From positions 1 through 32,386 of the IMG/VR virus record IMGVR_UViG_3300009494_000409: 32,386 bases of DNA. One strand, given 5' to 3'. Shown piece after piece: positions 6,345 to 26,647 of the stretch; the stretch's first letter is position 1; each line of letters opens with the position of its first letter. Source of the stretch: a virus. The position numbers were made by a program, and so were the translations under genes. The notes below the pieces were generated by a model. It worked only from the letters and a program-made list of their open reading frames with translations, did not search any database and was not told the origin of the DNA.

Positions 6345-7301
6345 TTAAGCTAAGTCACCATACAGCCACCATTCATTTGTATCCTGTAAAACAAGCACAG
6401 CTCCCGAATATTGACCATAAAAATCAGTACAATTTCCAGAACTTCGTATCGTTACTCCACCAGCTGGGGCAATAGAAACTTTTCCAGCTCCCTCTTGATA
6501 CAAAACAATAATTGTTCCAATTTCAAATCCAACAGTTACTGCAGTAGGAATTGTTAATGTTACCGGAGCTGCATTAGTAAATCGAATTTCTTTACCAGCA
6601 TCACTTATAATTAATTGGTAAACTGTTCCAAGGACTTCATTAATATCTACTTTGGATATGTCAGCATTAATAGTTAGTGTATTTGCTATTGCTGCAGTAG
6701 TTGTTACATTGGCACCACCTAAAACAAACAATTTGCCCGCTCCAGTTGGCGCTACGGTTAAGGCATCATCTGCTTCAAAAGTATTTGCCGGTGCACCACC
6801 AGCAGCCTCCAGATTAATTCCACCAGCAGTTCGTGTAATCGCTACGGTCGCTCCAGTCGAAGTTAAGGTACCAAATTCAGCAGCATTACCGGTAGATCCC
6901 ATATAAATCTCTAGATCACTTCCATCCGGCAATCCATAAACGGTTCCATCCGGAAGTGTTTTTAAAGTAGAGGCAAAGTTGATCGCACTTATCTTAATTC
7001 CACCATTGCTTATATAAAGATCACCAGCGGTTAAATTAATATCACCTAGAGAAATATTCAAATCATTTGTAGTTATTGTGATTTCAGTAAAAAGACCTGA
7101 ACTACCAGAATTATTAAGTTGAGTCCAAGTTGCAATATTATTATATCTGCTTGTAAGCATCCATACATTTGCAGTAAACTCTTGATGCCAAATATCACCA
7201 ACATGTACTCCGGAAAGATCTGTTGTCAGTGGCGCTCTAGTCCTGGTTTTAAAGTTTGGTGGATTAGGAGATTTAACTCCTAAATATGATAAATCACGCA
7301 T
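6345..7301 (-). CDS. Tail fibre or appendage protein with shared anchor and tip domains
   Basis: This 318-aa beta-rich protein is last in the structural operon; its ATG overlaps the stop of the 38-aa gene upstream (TAATG). The N-terminus (about 1-70: NPPNF, RAPLTTD, GDIW, VWMLTSR, TWTQLN) matches that of the 744-aa fibre encoded at 12187-14421, as expected for a common virion-attachment domain. The middle is Ala/Gly/Thr-rich. The last ~85 residues (EIRFTNAAPVTLTIP, GAGKVSIAPAGGVTI, EWWLYGDL) form a domain that recurs at the C-terminus of the 705-aa protein at 8507-10624. It probably takes part in host adsorption. Confidence 0.7.
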   Translation of the reverse strand: MRDLSYLGVKSPNPPNFKTRTRAPLTTDLSGVHVGDIWHQEFTANVWMLTSRYNNIATWTQLNNSGSSGLFTEITITTNDLNISLGDINLTAGDLYISNGGIKISAINFASTLKTLPDGTVYGLPDGSDLEIYMGSTGNAAEFGTLTSTGATVAITRTAGGINLEAAGGAPANTFEADDALTVAPTGAGKLFVLGGANVTTTAAIANTLTINADISKVDINEVLGTVYQLIISDAGKEIRFTNAAPVTLTIPTAVTVGFEIGTIIVLYQEGAGKVSIAPAGGVTIRSSGNCTDFYGQYSGAVLVLQDTNEWWLYGDLA

Positions 7302-8506: not shown

Positions 8507-10624
8507 TTACGCTTCAACATCGCCTGCGATACACCATTGATCCTGGATCGTTTGGATAAGTGCAGCGCAGCTATTTTGTTTCACCAATTTATATGCGTCA
8601 TCTGCCGATTTGAAAGTAACTGCCGCACCAGGGGTTAGGGTCACTTGTCCAGCCCCTAATTGTTGCACATAGAGCACACATCCGACATCGTAAGCCACAT
8701 CTGCGTGTGGGGGGATAGTCAGTGTTGAGGCAGCCGCATTAGTCATCGTAATGAATTTATTTTGGTCAAGAATTACAGCAGTATACGCAGTACCAACTTG
8801 AGCGTTTATAGTTAATTTATTGCCTATACTAACTGAACCCGCTGCATTTGTTACTTCGATGCCGTGCTCACCCGTCAATGTAGCAGGAATTGGCACTCCT
8901 CCCGTATCACCAACTAGGAGCTGTCCATCACTCATTTCAGTTGTCCACGCTACTGCACCGGTAGTAGTCGCACCATAGGCTATGCCGTGAGATGTTTGAG
9001 TTCCTAATTTTGCCTTTAAAGTTAAAGGTGCTACTACTTTTGCAGCTTCCGTTCCTGCGATTGCTTCCGCATTGCTACAGAATGTTGGTGTATAGTCATC
9101 TAATGTATCTAGAGCAGCCTGTACATTTGTATCCGCTGCTGAAAGAATTCCACCAAAATCAGTAGTTACTGTTGAGACTAAGGAAGCTATATTTGTTCCG
9201 GAACTAACAATGCCTGACCGCAAAGAACTCTTATCTATATTAACTTGAACAATAGAAGATACTGTTTCACTATAAATAATCGTACCAAGTTGAGCGAATG
9301 CAAGATATTCAAATTCACCACTCATTACGGCGTTGTCACCATTACTTAAAGCTGTCTGCGCTAGAGCTAAATTGTTGAATTGTGCTGTATGCAATACTGC
9401 GCAATACGTAGGAGTGGCTGTGTTTAAATTATTCTTTGATGCATAAAGAGTATATATTCCATATTTTCCAGCAGTTAAGGCCGTAGCTACACCTGCGTTA
9501 TTATAATAGCCAGTAAAGGTATTAGTAGAATTATGCAATGCCCATTTACCACCAGCCAATGTAAACCTTTTACACCATGTTTCTGCAACTCCACCACTAT
9601 CTGCAATAGTTGTCTCAAGGCCTGCATTAGCTAAGATGTCAGCACCATTAATTTGAATACCTTGAGTACCGTTAAGTGTAATATTCGCACCGTCATTCTC
9701 AATAATAGAACCGAGATTTTTATTCACAAAGCGAGAAAATTCTATAGGGGTTTTATAGGAATAATTGTTTTTAACGGTTAATTGATTATTTCCAGCAGCG
9801 GTAGAATCTCGTAAGCACTTAAAAAGAACAATATTATCTTCGAATGTTGAATCAGATCTTATATTTGTCTTGCCGATTGTTCCCGTATCATCAATGTATA
9901 TCCAATAGCAATTTCCAGCAGTCATTCCTGCAACAGTTTGTGGGCCAGTCCAAGCTATTGGGGCGCCCTTAATATATCCAGAACCACCTCTTAGGAGCTC
10001 AAAATCCCCCAAAGTGGTGTCATCGAAATAATTTCCTGCCCCAGTCCATGCCTCAAAGCCAGAGTCACTCTGAAGAACAGGTAAAGTATCTATATCTACA
10101 GCATTAGCTACATTTAGAATTTCTAAGCGATTTTCTATTGAAGTAATATTTGCCCAGGCAGCTGCTCCAGTTGATGACGAAATCATCAATTGTCCGTTTG
10201 TACCTTCAGATGAAGAAAATACACCAGCGGCGCTAGATTGTACTATTCCACGACCTAAAGCCGAAGCGGTTAAGTTTGTAGTAACTATATTTGTAGCATT
10301 TACAGTAGTTAGTGTAATTGCATCATTAAGGTTCACGGTAACTGTGGATCCAGCTCCAGCTGAATTTATATTAGTTCCACCTGCCACTGTCAGAATATTT
10401 AAGGCCGGAGTCGCTGAACCAACATCTGTATCGAATTGATTTGCTACTGCCGCAGCAAATGAAATTGCTAACTCATTAGTTAGTGGATCACCTGTTATAG
10501 TAACAGGTGCTATGCCGACAAGATTTATATTATTAGCGCCATCTACTCCGACAGCTACCCCGATATCTCCGGTTAAAGTTTTAAGTGTATCCGTATCCGG
10601 ATCGAATTTTCCCATTTGAGACAC
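8507..10624 (-). CDS. Large tail appendage or fibre protein
   Basis: This 705-aa protein starts at GTG (10624), supported by AGGAGG seven bases upstream; the ATG four codons in is less well placed. Like many phage fibres it is rich in Ala, Thr, Asn and Gly with beta-repeat segments. It contains sequences common in such proteins: AADTNVQAALDTLDDY and DGQLLVGDTGGVPIPATLT. The C-terminal ~100 residues (KLTINAQVGTAYTAVILDQN, FITMTNAAASTLTIP, GAGQVTLTPGAAVTFKS) match the C-terminal domain of the 318-aa protein at 6345-7301. It may form a trimeric receptor-binding appendage. Exact placement in the virion is unknown. Confidence 0.7.
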   Translation of the reverse strand: MSQMGKFDPDTDTLKTLTGDIGVAVGVDGANNINLVGIAPVTITGDPLTNELAISFAAAVANQFDTDVGSATPALNILTVAGGTNINSAGAGSTVTVNLNDAITLTTVNATNIVTTNLTASALGRGIVQSSAAGVFSSSEGTNGQLMISSSTGAAAWANITSIENRLEILNVANAVDIDTLPVLQSDSGFEAWTGAGNYFDDTTLGDFELLRGGSGYIKGAPIAWTGPQTVAGMTAGNCYWIYIDDTGTIGKTNIRSDSTFEDNIVLFKCLRDSTAAGNNQLTVKNNYSYKTPIEFSRFVNKNLGSIIENDGANITLNGTQGIQINGADILANAGLETTIADSGGVAETWCKRFTLAGGKWALHNSTNTFTGYYNNAGVATALTAGKYGIYTLYASKNNLNTATPTYCAVLHTAQFNNLALAQTALSNGDNAVMSGEFEYLAFAQLGTIIYSETVSSIVQVNIDKSSLRSGIVSSGTNIASLVSTVTTDFGGILSAADTNVQAALDTLDDYTPTFCSNAEAIAGTEAAKVVAPLTLKAKLGTQTSHGIAYGATTTGAVAWTTEMSDGQLLVGDTGGVPIPATLTGEHGIEVTNAAGSVSIGNKLTINAQVGTAYTAVILDQNKFITMTNAAASTLTIPPHADVAYDVGCVLYVQQLGAGQVTLTPGAAVTFKSADDAYKLVKQNSCAALIQTIQDQWCIAGDVEA

Positions 10625-24203: not shown

Positions 24204-24725
24204 TTAAACCAATTCTGTTGAACGAGTGCATACTACATTAGCAACATGTTGATCAAAGAACATTACGCCAGCGAATACTGTCTTAATACCATATTGATAC
24301 TTATCGTCTAACGCGCCAACCTTCCTAGGCCCAACAATTTTAGCAGTATTAGAATTCTGTCTTATAATACCGTGAGCATCTTTACCCAAAACCAAATTAC
24401 TGTAAACAACATGATCTAATGCAGAAGTTGATGTTTCTTTTGGTGCTTGTGTTGTTTGAACAAACCTAATCCTAGAATAAGAGCCCCATTCTGAATCTAA
24501 AGGCTTATAGCTAGAGCCATACTCAACAAGTGTCTTAAAGTCTGGCATAGCCTCTAAATCAGGAATCAAGTCTGGGTGTGTGATACCCAAATATGCCTGT
24601 GCTACAGGTGCAGTACCAAACTTATTAGAACCAGAAATCTTTTGTGTAATAGTCTTAGCTTGGTAACCAGTCAATGTTGAAATAACGGTTAACCAATCCC
24701 TTTGCGACATTTCACTAGGATCATC
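24204..24725 (-). CDS. Major capsid protein (N4-gp56 type), exon 2
   Basis: This is the 3' exon of the capsid gene: 174 codons including the stop, 173 residues. It begins DDPSEMSQRDWLTVISTLTG and continues KFGTAPVAQAYLGITHPDLI, SEWGSYSRIRFVQTT and GKDAHGIIRQ. These are the order and spacing of the N4-gp56 family's second half: HPD..DL, EWGS, RF, G...G-I. Upstream the frame stays open only because it reads the antisense of the endonuclease gene. The first codon (GAT, 24725-24723) is chosen because family members have Asn-Gly-Asp-x-Pro at this point and because the preceding base is G, the required last base of a group I intron. Confidence 0.85.
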   Translation of the reverse strand, partial: DDPSEMSQRDWLTVISTLTGYQAKTITQKISGSNKFGTAPVAQAYLGITHPDLIPDLEAMPDFKTLVEYGSSYKPLDSEWGSYSRIRFVQTTQAPKETSTSALDHVVYSNLVLGKDAHGIIRQNSNTAKIVGPRKVGALDDKYQYGIKTVFAGVMFFDQHVANVVCTRSTELV

Positions 24726-25986
24726 CATTTCTTTTACTTTTATTGACTTAAGTCTTGTAGCCGATACTGTTAAAGCATGAAAAACAAAATTTGCAAAACT
24801 AGCTATGCCTATCTTGCGGGATATATCGACGGTGACGGGTGCTTTTTCCTTGGAAAATACCGCCCTAAAAATCGAATTTCCTATAAGTTTCCACTTGCTA
24901 TAATAATTTCTTCTACAAATGTAATTATTCTTAATAAATTCAAGTCCCTGCATGGTGGAAGCGTAGCGTCTGCTAAAAAAATAATTGCAGGCCATAAGCA
25001 ACTTCACTATCTTACCTTTAAAAAAGGCGTGTCCCTTCAAATCATCGACAAAATACTCCCGTACCTTGTTGAAAAGAAAGAAGAAGCTGAAATTGTTAAA
25101 CTCTTTGCCAAAACCAAAACCGCTTTTAATAAAATACAACTCATTTCTAAACTTAGAGTTCACAAAGATATAAATAATCTCGTGTCCAAATTCCATAAAA
25201 TAGAGTTTGAATCTTTCAAAAACACTGTTATACCAACCAAAGAAGATTTTGCTTATCTTGCTGGTTTTATTGACGCCGAATGCTGTCTTTGCATAAGTAA
25301 ATATAAGCCTAAAAATGGACCTAACTTCACCTATAAAATAACACTTCGTCTCAATAACTCTAAGGCACCAATTTTCAAGTGGCTTCTTGAGCGATTTGGT
25401 GGTCATACTAGCTTTATCAATAGAGTCAAAACCAATAGAAAAAATCAGTTGGATTGGCAACTTTCTGCAAAAGCACTCTCTAAGTTGCTTCCTAAGATTG
25501 TTGGCTTCCTTGAATATAAAAAACCTGTTTGTATTGAGCTTATCAAGTTCTACAATACAACCCTCACCAATGGAGGTGCTAGGCACACGGAAAAATTCCG
25601 TGAATCCTACGCATCTATCATTAGAGCAAGAGAAGAAATTGTCGAAAAAGTTCATAAACTCAACCTCAAAGGTAATAAAAACACTTAAGCGGGGAGTCTT
25701 GTTATTCCTCCCTCAACATGTTTCCATGCTGTTAAGACTATCGCTTGCCGTACATGTACGGCCCATCGGACTTAGTCGTTGCGGCTAGACATCTAATCGA
25801 AAAATATTCGAACTAGAACAGGAATGAGTGTGCCCTTGTCAATAAGACTAAAGTTATAATTAATGTAATTAATCATTGCTCTTCTTTTCCTGTTTAAACC
25901 CTTGCCTCTGGTTGCCTTAGGCTGAAATGAATGCCCTTAGGTTTTCCAAGTAATCACCGACGGTTTTACAATGGCAACTATCCGAT
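24726..25986 (-). ncRNA. Group I self-splicing intron in the major capsid gene
   Basis: The 1261-nt insert has a recognisable group I core at its 5' end (minus strand; plus-strand coordinates given). P1: exon AAUGGU (25992-25987) with guide GCCAUU (25975-25970), with the required U-G pair at the splice site. P2: 25969-25950. P3: UUGGA (25949-25945) with UCCGA (25770-25766). P7: GACUA (25777-25773) with UAGUC (25740-25736). P8: GCCGUA/UACGGC (25762-25747). P9: a hairpin with a GAAA tetraloop (25733-25715). P9.1: GGGAG/CUCCC (25712-25692). A P6-like 8-bp stem pairs 25894-25887 with 25824-25817. The endonuclease gene fills the space between P9.1 and the 3' end, on the other strand. The intron ends in G at 24726. 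Splicing is predicted, not shown. Confidence 0.85.
24777..25688 (+). CDS. LAGLIDADG homing endonuclease, antisense within the capsid intron
   Basis: This 303-aa protein has two LAGLIDADG motifs: LAGYIDGDG at 13-21 and LAGFIDAEC at 161-169. The two catalytic acids (Asp20, Glu168) are kept, so a single chain can form the two-fold cleavage core. Each motif is followed by the expected strand-rich DNA-binding saddle and a helix pair (for example LPKIVGFLEYKKPVCIELI). It should cut intron-less capsid genes and drive intron spread. The gene lies opposite to the capsid gene. An in-frame TAA at 24771-24773 fixes ATG 24777 as the earliest start. No ribosome site is visible, but TTGACT (24743-24748) and TACTGT (24765-24770) would give a nearly leaderless message. 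Confidence 0.9.
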   Translation: MKNKICKTSYAYLAGYIDGDGCFFLGKYRPKNRISYKFPLAIIISSTNVIILNKFKSLHGGSVASAKKIIAGHKQLHYLTFKKGVSLQIIDKILPYLVEKKEEAEIVKLFAKTKTAFNKIQLISKLRVHKDINNLVSKFHKIEFESFKNTVIPTKEDFAYLAGFIDAECCLCISKYKPKNGPNFTYKITLRLNNSKAPIFKWLLERFGGHTSFINRVKTNRKNQLDWQLSAKALSKLLPKIVGFLEYKKPVCIELIKFYNTTLTNGGARHTEKFRESYASIIRAREEIVEKVHKLNLKGNKNT

Positions 25987-26421
25987 ACCATTTTCTCCAC
26001 CAGCACAACGAATACATGTTGATGTAGTCAACAATATATTACGTGTAAGAATATCTTCTGTTTCTCTAAGTGCTGAATTCAATGCACCAGCATGTACTCT
26101 TAATACATCTTCCGGGTTCTGATCGACTGTTCTTTCAGAAATCAAGAAGTGTGTACCATAGTAGTTTATTTGTGCATCAATAAAGGTTTTTGCCAATACT
26201 TGCGGATCTGTATCCAGCTCAGTTTCAGCAATGGGTGTTGGAAATGCAGAAGGACGAGAAAATTTAGGAAAACGTTTTGTATCACCGGACCCCTTAGGCA
26301 TTTGTGATTCTATTGCTGTTAAGCCATAGACATAATTTGCCTCCGGGTCCATAAAGATAGTTGCATCTATTTTCGCTTTTACCGATAGAGGTATATTGAG
26401 TGTAGTTGTAAACCCAGCCAT
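25987..26421 (-). CDS. Major capsid protein (N4-gp56 type), exon 1
   Basis: This is the 5' exon: 145 codons ending ...CAGGENG at 25987. The ATG at 26421 has AAGGAG (26432-26427) five bases upstream. The N-terminal part (TTTLNIPLSVKAKIDATIFM, YVYGLTAIESQMPKGSGDTK, YGTHFLISERTVDQNPEDVL) fits the first half of N4-gp56-like coat proteins. If the intron is not removed, translation ends two codons later at TAG, so splicing is needed for a working capsid. With exon 2 the product is 318 residues, a usual length for this family, and would form the icosahedral shell. It follows the scaffold gene and has its own promoter and leader. Confidence 0.87.
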
Positions 26422-26432
26422 ACCATCTCCTT

Positions 26433-26460
26433 AAAAAAAAGTCTCTGAATCGAGATACTT
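26433..26460 (-). promoter_or_regulatory. Hairpin and U8 run just before the capsid ribosome site
   Basis: On the minus strand, AAGU and CUC (with a 2-base bulge) pair with GAG and ACUU (26460-26439), followed by eight U (26440-26433) and then AAGGAG. It looks like a weak intrinsic terminator or attenuator placed directly before the capsid start. Confidence 0.3.
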
Positions 26461-26471
26461 AAATATATTTA

Positions 26472-26612
26472 ATTAAGGTAGGCGAATTCCTTTTGAGATT
26501 TTACGCCAATGGTTGCGAAACCACCTAACGCTTAGTGCTTGCGAAGCACCGTGAGACTAGCAACAACGCTAGCCCCTTACGCTGTGACTTGCGACGCCAC
26601 ATTACGCGAACT
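26472..26612 (-). ncRNA. Structured leader of the capsid mRNA with repeated small hairpins
   Basis: On the minus strand this 230-base gap holds four short hairpins within about 90 bases: GUGGC/GUCAC, CUAGC/GCUAG, GUGCUU/AAGCAC and GGUU/AACC. Three have a related UCGC(AA) apex. They are separated by a recurring GCGUAA/GCGUUA spacer. The segment is GC-richer than its surroundings and has no open frame. It lies between a likely promoter (26618-26647) and the capsid start, so it would be the 5' leader. It could set capsid mRNA stability or bind a protein. No known RNA family is recognised. Confidence 0.5.
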
Positions 26613-26617
26613 ACTCC

Positions 26618-26647
26618 ATTATAATAACAATTTGTTACATAAAACAA
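26618..26647 (-). promoter_or_regulatory. Likely capsid promoter
   Basis: On the minus strand, TTGTTT (26647-26642) and a consensus TATAAT (26623-26618) are 18 bases apart. Transcription would start near 26611 and give a ~190-base leader before the capsid ATG. A dedicated promoter fits the high capsid demand. Confidence 0.5.

Follow-up and report, generated by a model that had tools for sequence, protein, structure and literature searches.

Evidence for a group I intron with an antisense LAGLIDADG endonuclease and a stop-free capsid-sense frame in a phage major capsid gene

The major capsid gene in a phage genome fragment of 32,386 nucleotides (IMG/VR record IMGVR_UViG_3300009494_000409, positions 1 to 32,386; here called the window) appears to carry a mobile group I intron with two expression programs on opposite strands. 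A homing endonuclease gene runs against the capsid gene and the intron, and opposite it a stop-free "escort" frame on the capsid-sense strand would be translated to protect late capsid expression from polarity. Judged from comparison of the window with related loci, we give this reading a probability of about 0.6. The original prediction, which was made from the window alone, missed two of its elements: a promoter belonging to the endonuclease gene and the selected stop-free frame in the capsid sense. The features of the window are collected in Table 1.

Table 1. Features of the interrupted capsid gene in the window and the evidence for each
Feature	Position	Strand	Evidence or remark
Major capsid gene, exon 1	25987..26421	-	145 codons, GAAAATGGU at 5' splice site; phrog_1357 match, same end in alignment to intronless L085
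Group I intron	24726..25986	-	1261 nt, last base G (24726); family covariance model E 4.6e-21, Rfam E 2.4e-4, empty site in L085
P1, exon AAUGGU (25992-25987) and guide GCCAUU (25975-25970)	25970..25992	-	U.G at splice site; perfect 6-bp P1 in 43/43 introns
Catalytic core, P3-P9.1	25687..25967	-	Family model match; covariation in 31/37 pairs
P3	25963-25957/25769-25763	-	Within catalytic core
P7, GACUA/UAGUC	25777-25773/25740-25736	-	Within catalytic core
P8	25762-25747	-	Within catalytic core
P9, GAAA-capped	25731-25714	-	Within catalytic core
Two-motif LAGLIDADG homing endonuclease gene, 303 aa	24777..25688	+	Antisense to capsid gene and intron; LAGLIDADG_1 (Pfam) E 1.5e-11
"Escort" ORF start, GAGG (25667-25664), 8-nt spacing, ATG (25655-25653)	25653..25667	-	ATG and Shine-Dalgarno enrichment at same place in relatives
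"Escort" ORF, stop-free, codon-aligned with endonuclease	24204..25655	-	Here runs in frame into exon 2; no TTA/CTA/TCA in endonuclease body of window
Putative endonuclease promoter, TTGACT-N16-TACTGT-N6-ATG	24743..24776	+	Inside intron 3' end; 8/12 in window (weak), conserved position in relatives
Major capsid gene, exon 2 including stop codon	24204..24725	-	phrog_1357 match and L085 alignment

The interrupted capsid gene and its group I intron

The capsid coding sequence had been predicted to break after residue 145 and to resume 1261 bases later, and profile searches bore this out. The capsid ORF at 26421-25978(-) matched positions 35-167 of phrog_1357 (major head protein), the ORF at 24725-24207(-) matched positions 179-318, and the exons joined at GGT|GAT produced a single phrog_1357 match spanning profile positions 36-318 (88.3 bits, E 9.4e-25). 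We detected no Pfam match for the joined exons, and we take the protein, a phrog_1357-type major capsid protein, to be of the N4gp56 type. Within the insert, the exon 1 frame meets a TAG stop (25980-25978) after 7 nt. The limits of the insert, 25986-24726, are fixed by an intronless capsid allele in an IMG/VR relative, L085, in which the same gene is a single ORF with 82% nucleotide identity and the junction reads GAAAATGGA|GATAATCC without interruption. An allele of this kind, reading straight over the junction, had been proposed as a check on the prediction. The L085 allele (L085:996-1949) has GGA instead of GGT before the junction and therefore has no U at the 5' splice site, a difference that could reflect either flank conversion or later drift. 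Ahead of the capsid start in the window, a leader of ~180 nt (26460-26640(-)) contains repeated short hairpin-like units (TTCGCAA/TCGCAAG with GCG borders).

A search with the Rfam Intron_gpI model, also proposed as a check, gave a weak match, on the minus strand only, at 26025-25714 (E 2.4e-4), and the score of 26.6 bits fell below the gathering score of 50 bits, which is a search threshold and not a biological boundary. With the endonuclease protein as the query, we gathered relatives (30 loci, and then 80 viral loci and 3 in bacterial MAG contigs) and built a covariance model from 37 aligned relative cores, with the window excluded. This model found exactly one match in the window, at 25967-25687(-), with 86.2 bits and an E value of 4.6e-21. 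In the core alignment, 96.1% of cells were paired versus 35-47% in slid controls, and changes on both sides occurred in 31 of the 37 core pairs, including those of the pseudoknotted P3 and P7. The pairing of exon and guide in P1 was a perfect 6 bp with a U.G in all 43 introns and covaried with the exon; AAUGGU/GCCAUU in the window is a compensated variant. The window contains the P3/P7 pseudoknotted core with P4-P6, P8, and P9, the U.G of P1, and the terminal G, and the P7 pairing, P8, and GAAA-capped P9 lie at the 5' end of the insert where the original prediction had read them by eye. Taken together, the family covariance model, the guide pairing in P1, the L085 allele, and the structural match of the endonuclease described below (AlphaFold/PDB) give strong support to a major capsid gene that contains a group I intron and, antisense within it, a LAGLIDADG homing endonuclease, in agreement with the predicted splitting of this gene by a group I intron.

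Other loci in the set contain two to five group I introns per capsid gene, mostly without endonuclease genes. At L004:3909-5140, four intron-model matches (138-172 bits) fall inside 1.25 kb of one capsid gene.

The antisense endonuclease and its putative promoter

The prediction of a two-motif LAGLIDADG gene pointing against the capsid gene and intron proved correct (Table 1). Its motifs read LAGYIDGDG and LAGFIDAEC, and their acidic residues, D20 and E168, are invariant (22 homologs). The AlphaFold model of the endonuclease (pLDDT 91.1) had mMsoI (I-MsoI) as its best Foldseek match (E 2.2e-15), which places the predicted structure in the LAGLIDADG fold. We found no close relative of the protein in the cultured-phage collection. 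The profile phrog_5046 is labeled as an HNH endonuclease but matches a clear LAGLIDADG protein (5.6e-32), and the label looks wrong.

The antisense placement had been considered unusual, and this view was not sustained. The intron model gave 196 matches in 83 related loci, every one antisense to the endonuclease, and a phage precedent has been published for mycobacteriophage LittleE. Across the sequences compared, the antisense layout is the rule among these relatives and not an oddity of one phage. The endonuclease gene lies between P9 and the 3' splice site in most loci and within P6 in a subgroup (L046-L065, L068, and L074-L080).

We also identified a putative, conserved sigma70-type promoter, new here, in the 3' end of the intron and 6-7 nt ahead of the endonuclease ATG. 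A TTGACA/TATAAT-type pair with 16-18 nt spacing, ending 5-8 nt before the ATG, scored at least 9/12 in 48 of 64 loci versus 3% of shuffled sequences, and its commonest form among relatives is TTGACT-N17-TATNNT-N6/7-ATG. This promoter was absent from the output of a generic promoter scan of the window, which gave three other sites, with 7.1 expected by chance, so that the promoter assignment rests on conservation in relatives. Because the predicted transcription start falls at or next to the ATG, this geometry suggests that the endonuclease mRNA is probably leaderless; the subgroup L074-L081 has a leader with AAAGGAG, a strong Shine-Dalgarno sequence, in place of the leaderless start. Near the 3' end of the intron, a conserved AAGTCAA that was at one stage read as RNA pairing with P4 is in fact the complement of the TTGACT promoter box. 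Searches of open-licence literature returned no report of the promoter or of the stop-free frame described below, which is not proof that none exists.

A stop-free frame opposite the endonuclease

The frame codon-aligned with the endonuclease on the capsid-sense strand is open because the endonuclease avoids TTA, CTA, and TCA. In the endonuclease bodies of 66 homologs, which are related to one another and have third positions close to saturated, 1,212 Leu and 911 Ser codons included no TTA, one CTA, and one TCA (2 among 2,123). For the 48 loci with enough neighboring gene sequence, none of these codons was observed where 603 were expected. In the other genes of the window phage, TTA and CTA make up 55% of Leu codons and TCA makes up 28% of Ser codons. 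Two loci, L021 and L072, were considered as exceptions and then dismissed, as the offending codons lie upstream of the endonuclease or in its first few codons. By these codon counts, the near-total absence of TTA, CTA, and TCA keeps a start-equipped frame open on the capsid-sense strand, a property that is new here.

Signals for translation cluster at the beginning of this frame. Among starts in its first 15 codons, 69 of 105 are ATG, and 25% of starts in these codons have a strong Shine-Dalgarno sequence versus about 0-11% in bins farther along. GAGG before the escort ATG arises from a Leu codon that is CTC in 14 of 21 loci versus 13% elsewhere. A recognizable Shine-Dalgarno start is found at some loci and not at every one. 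On these signals, the escort frame looks translated. The frame continues in frame into exon 2 in 12 of 24 loci and in a smaller share of the wider set, or about a third to a half of loci overall; a continuation seen at only some loci means that it is not the exon 2 frame that is conserved. We rejected fusion of the escort frame with exon 2, given that the frame in many relatives stops before exon 2 or runs out of frame.

Could a codon preference of the endonuclease gene, and not its antisense frame, account for the missing codons? Endonuclease genes can carry foreign codon usage, but the deficit of 603 codons is accompanied by normal use of the other NNA codons (CCA, ACA, GCA, and GGA) in the endonuclease. 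The last approximately four endonuclease codons offer an internal control that contradicts this explanation: the conserved Leu of LNxKG uses TTA or CTA in 15 of 50 cases and the other conserved Leu columns use neither, the two codons being allowed at this column because it lies upstream of the escort start and so outside the escort frame. We regard codon preference as scarcely credible. That the frame is a true overlapping gene, kept open by the function of a real second protein such as a splicing helper, would fit its length, its constant openness, and its start signals. However, the antisense peptides resemble one another about as much as the endonuclease sequence by itself would produce (identity of 0.225 versus 0.218 with shuffled synonymous codons, slightly higher in close pairs), and third positions are close to saturated. 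The product had no Pfam or PHROG match, and its AlphaFold model reached a pLDDT of 49 and a pTM of 0.20 versus a pLDDT of 91 for the endonuclease at equal alignment depth. A second protein is thus unlikely. As judged from these comparisons and structure predictions, the escort product is not conserved, does not fold, and is not selected, and for this reason selection probably acts on translation itself.

A different account dispenses with splicing altogether, with the capsid made as two fragments and the long open frame feeding exon 2. The 483-aa frame of the window does continue into exon 2, but the many relatives in which the frame stops before exon 2 or is out of frame with it, the covariation of the core and P1, which implies selection for splicing, and the in vivo splicing of the LittleE capsid intron make this account very improbable. 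Translation may also matter for reasons other than polarity: ribosomes might shield the pre-mRNA from RNases, keep it from pairing with the endonuclease mRNA of the other strand, or drive polymerase through head-on collisions with endonuclease transcription. Such RNA protection or collision effects are a possible alternative, as the same sequence evidence that fits polarity cannot separate these reasons and the endonuclease promoter faces the capsid transcript. We found nothing positive that favors them over polarity and consider them a somewhat doubtful explanation.

A model of opposite-strand expression and its relation to known systems

In the polarity model, host RNA polymerase would produce a leaderless endonuclease mRNA from the promoter of the endonuclease gene, without dependence on late capsid transcription, and homing would copy the intron into capsid alleles that lack it. 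When the capsid operon is transcribed late, ribosomes would start at the Shine-Dalgarno sequence and ATG just past the core, or in P6, and would accompany RNA polymerase across the insert of ~900 nt, with the escort peptide as a by-product. Translation would most likely be selected because, if ribosomes were missing over a stretch of this length, Rho-type termination (polarity) would be favored and would cut off capsid exon 2 and downstream genes. Rho-type polarity is the best-known reason for ribosomes to accompany polymerase and is established bacterial physiology. A sense endonuclease would bring ribosome traffic through its own translation, yet it would be tied to strong late transcription, whereas an antisense endonuclease would be free of late transcription, so that a stand-in frame would be needed. 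We see roughly even odds that this intron family has an escort frame that is noncoding by content and under selection for being translated, sparing the late gene from polarity. Several findings count against the polarity model as the best explanation: some loci lack a recognizable Shine-Dalgarno start, the promoter of the window itself is weak (8/12), and the codon-aligned antisense frame in LittleE (JF937101) has two adjacent stops. Given these stops in one published case, not every antisense capsid intron needs an escort frame.

If correct, the model would provide a clean natural case of a frame kept only for the passage of ribosomes, with translation selected without a product, and would explain how a mobile element carries a backward gene inside a very strongly expressed late gene. 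It would also caution against assuming that an open frame conserved over a real gene encodes a functional protein.

LittleE is the earlier phage case of an antisense capsid-intron endonuclease, and the layout described here is therefore not the first. Its major capsid gene, gp13, has a likely group I intron that is spliced in vivo and holds a LAGLIDADG-like endonuclease gene, gp14, on the bottom strand (PMC3706429; JF937101). The case differs from ours in representing one high-GC phage with a capsid described as HK97-like, and the available text of that report describes no promoter or escort frame (PMC3706429). Dsq.L2066-type group I introns of nuclear rDNA likewise have an endonuclease antisense to the intron and expressed apart from the host transcript, but they are eukaryotic, reside in an untranslated rRNA gene, and encode His-Cys family enzymes from a polyadenylated mRNA with a spliceosomal intron (PMC9548176). 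The T4 td intron resembles ours as a phage group I intron in which expression of the endonuclease, I-TevI, is split from that of the host gene; it differs in that this GIY-YIG enzyme is encoded in the sense orientation and controlled through a late promoter and a hairpin in the RNA that masks the ribosome site (PMC2988022). In contrast to our reading of the escort frame, translation of I-TevI from within the intron lowers splicing and is tightly restricted (PMC2988022). In the methylase insertion of phage ShiLan, a hidden HNH endonuclease also overlaps a stop-free frame on the host strand, but the two are on the same strand in different frames, the host frame is continuous, and no intron was found (PMC11855218).

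Variation in endonuclease size was also observed among the relatives. Loci L074-L081 have short single-motif endonucleases, mostly in P6, in which antisense stop codons are avoided too. In L020, L072, and L073 the endonucleases are shortened, and one is fused between its two LAGLIDADG motifs; the internal deletions are all in frame, and the capsid-sense frame stays open. As a sign of escort-frame upkeep, these deletions are suggestive, with small numbers and a possible search bias. The same intron and endonuclease occur at L082, L083, and L084 on contigs binned as Parachlamydiaceae, Patescibacteria, and Pseudomonadota MAGs, which are possibly phage contigs. Elsewhere in the window, two tail-region proteins (6345-7301 and 8507-10624(-)) share a C-terminal domain of ~100 aa (phrog_8780, phrog_21510, and phrog_21978).
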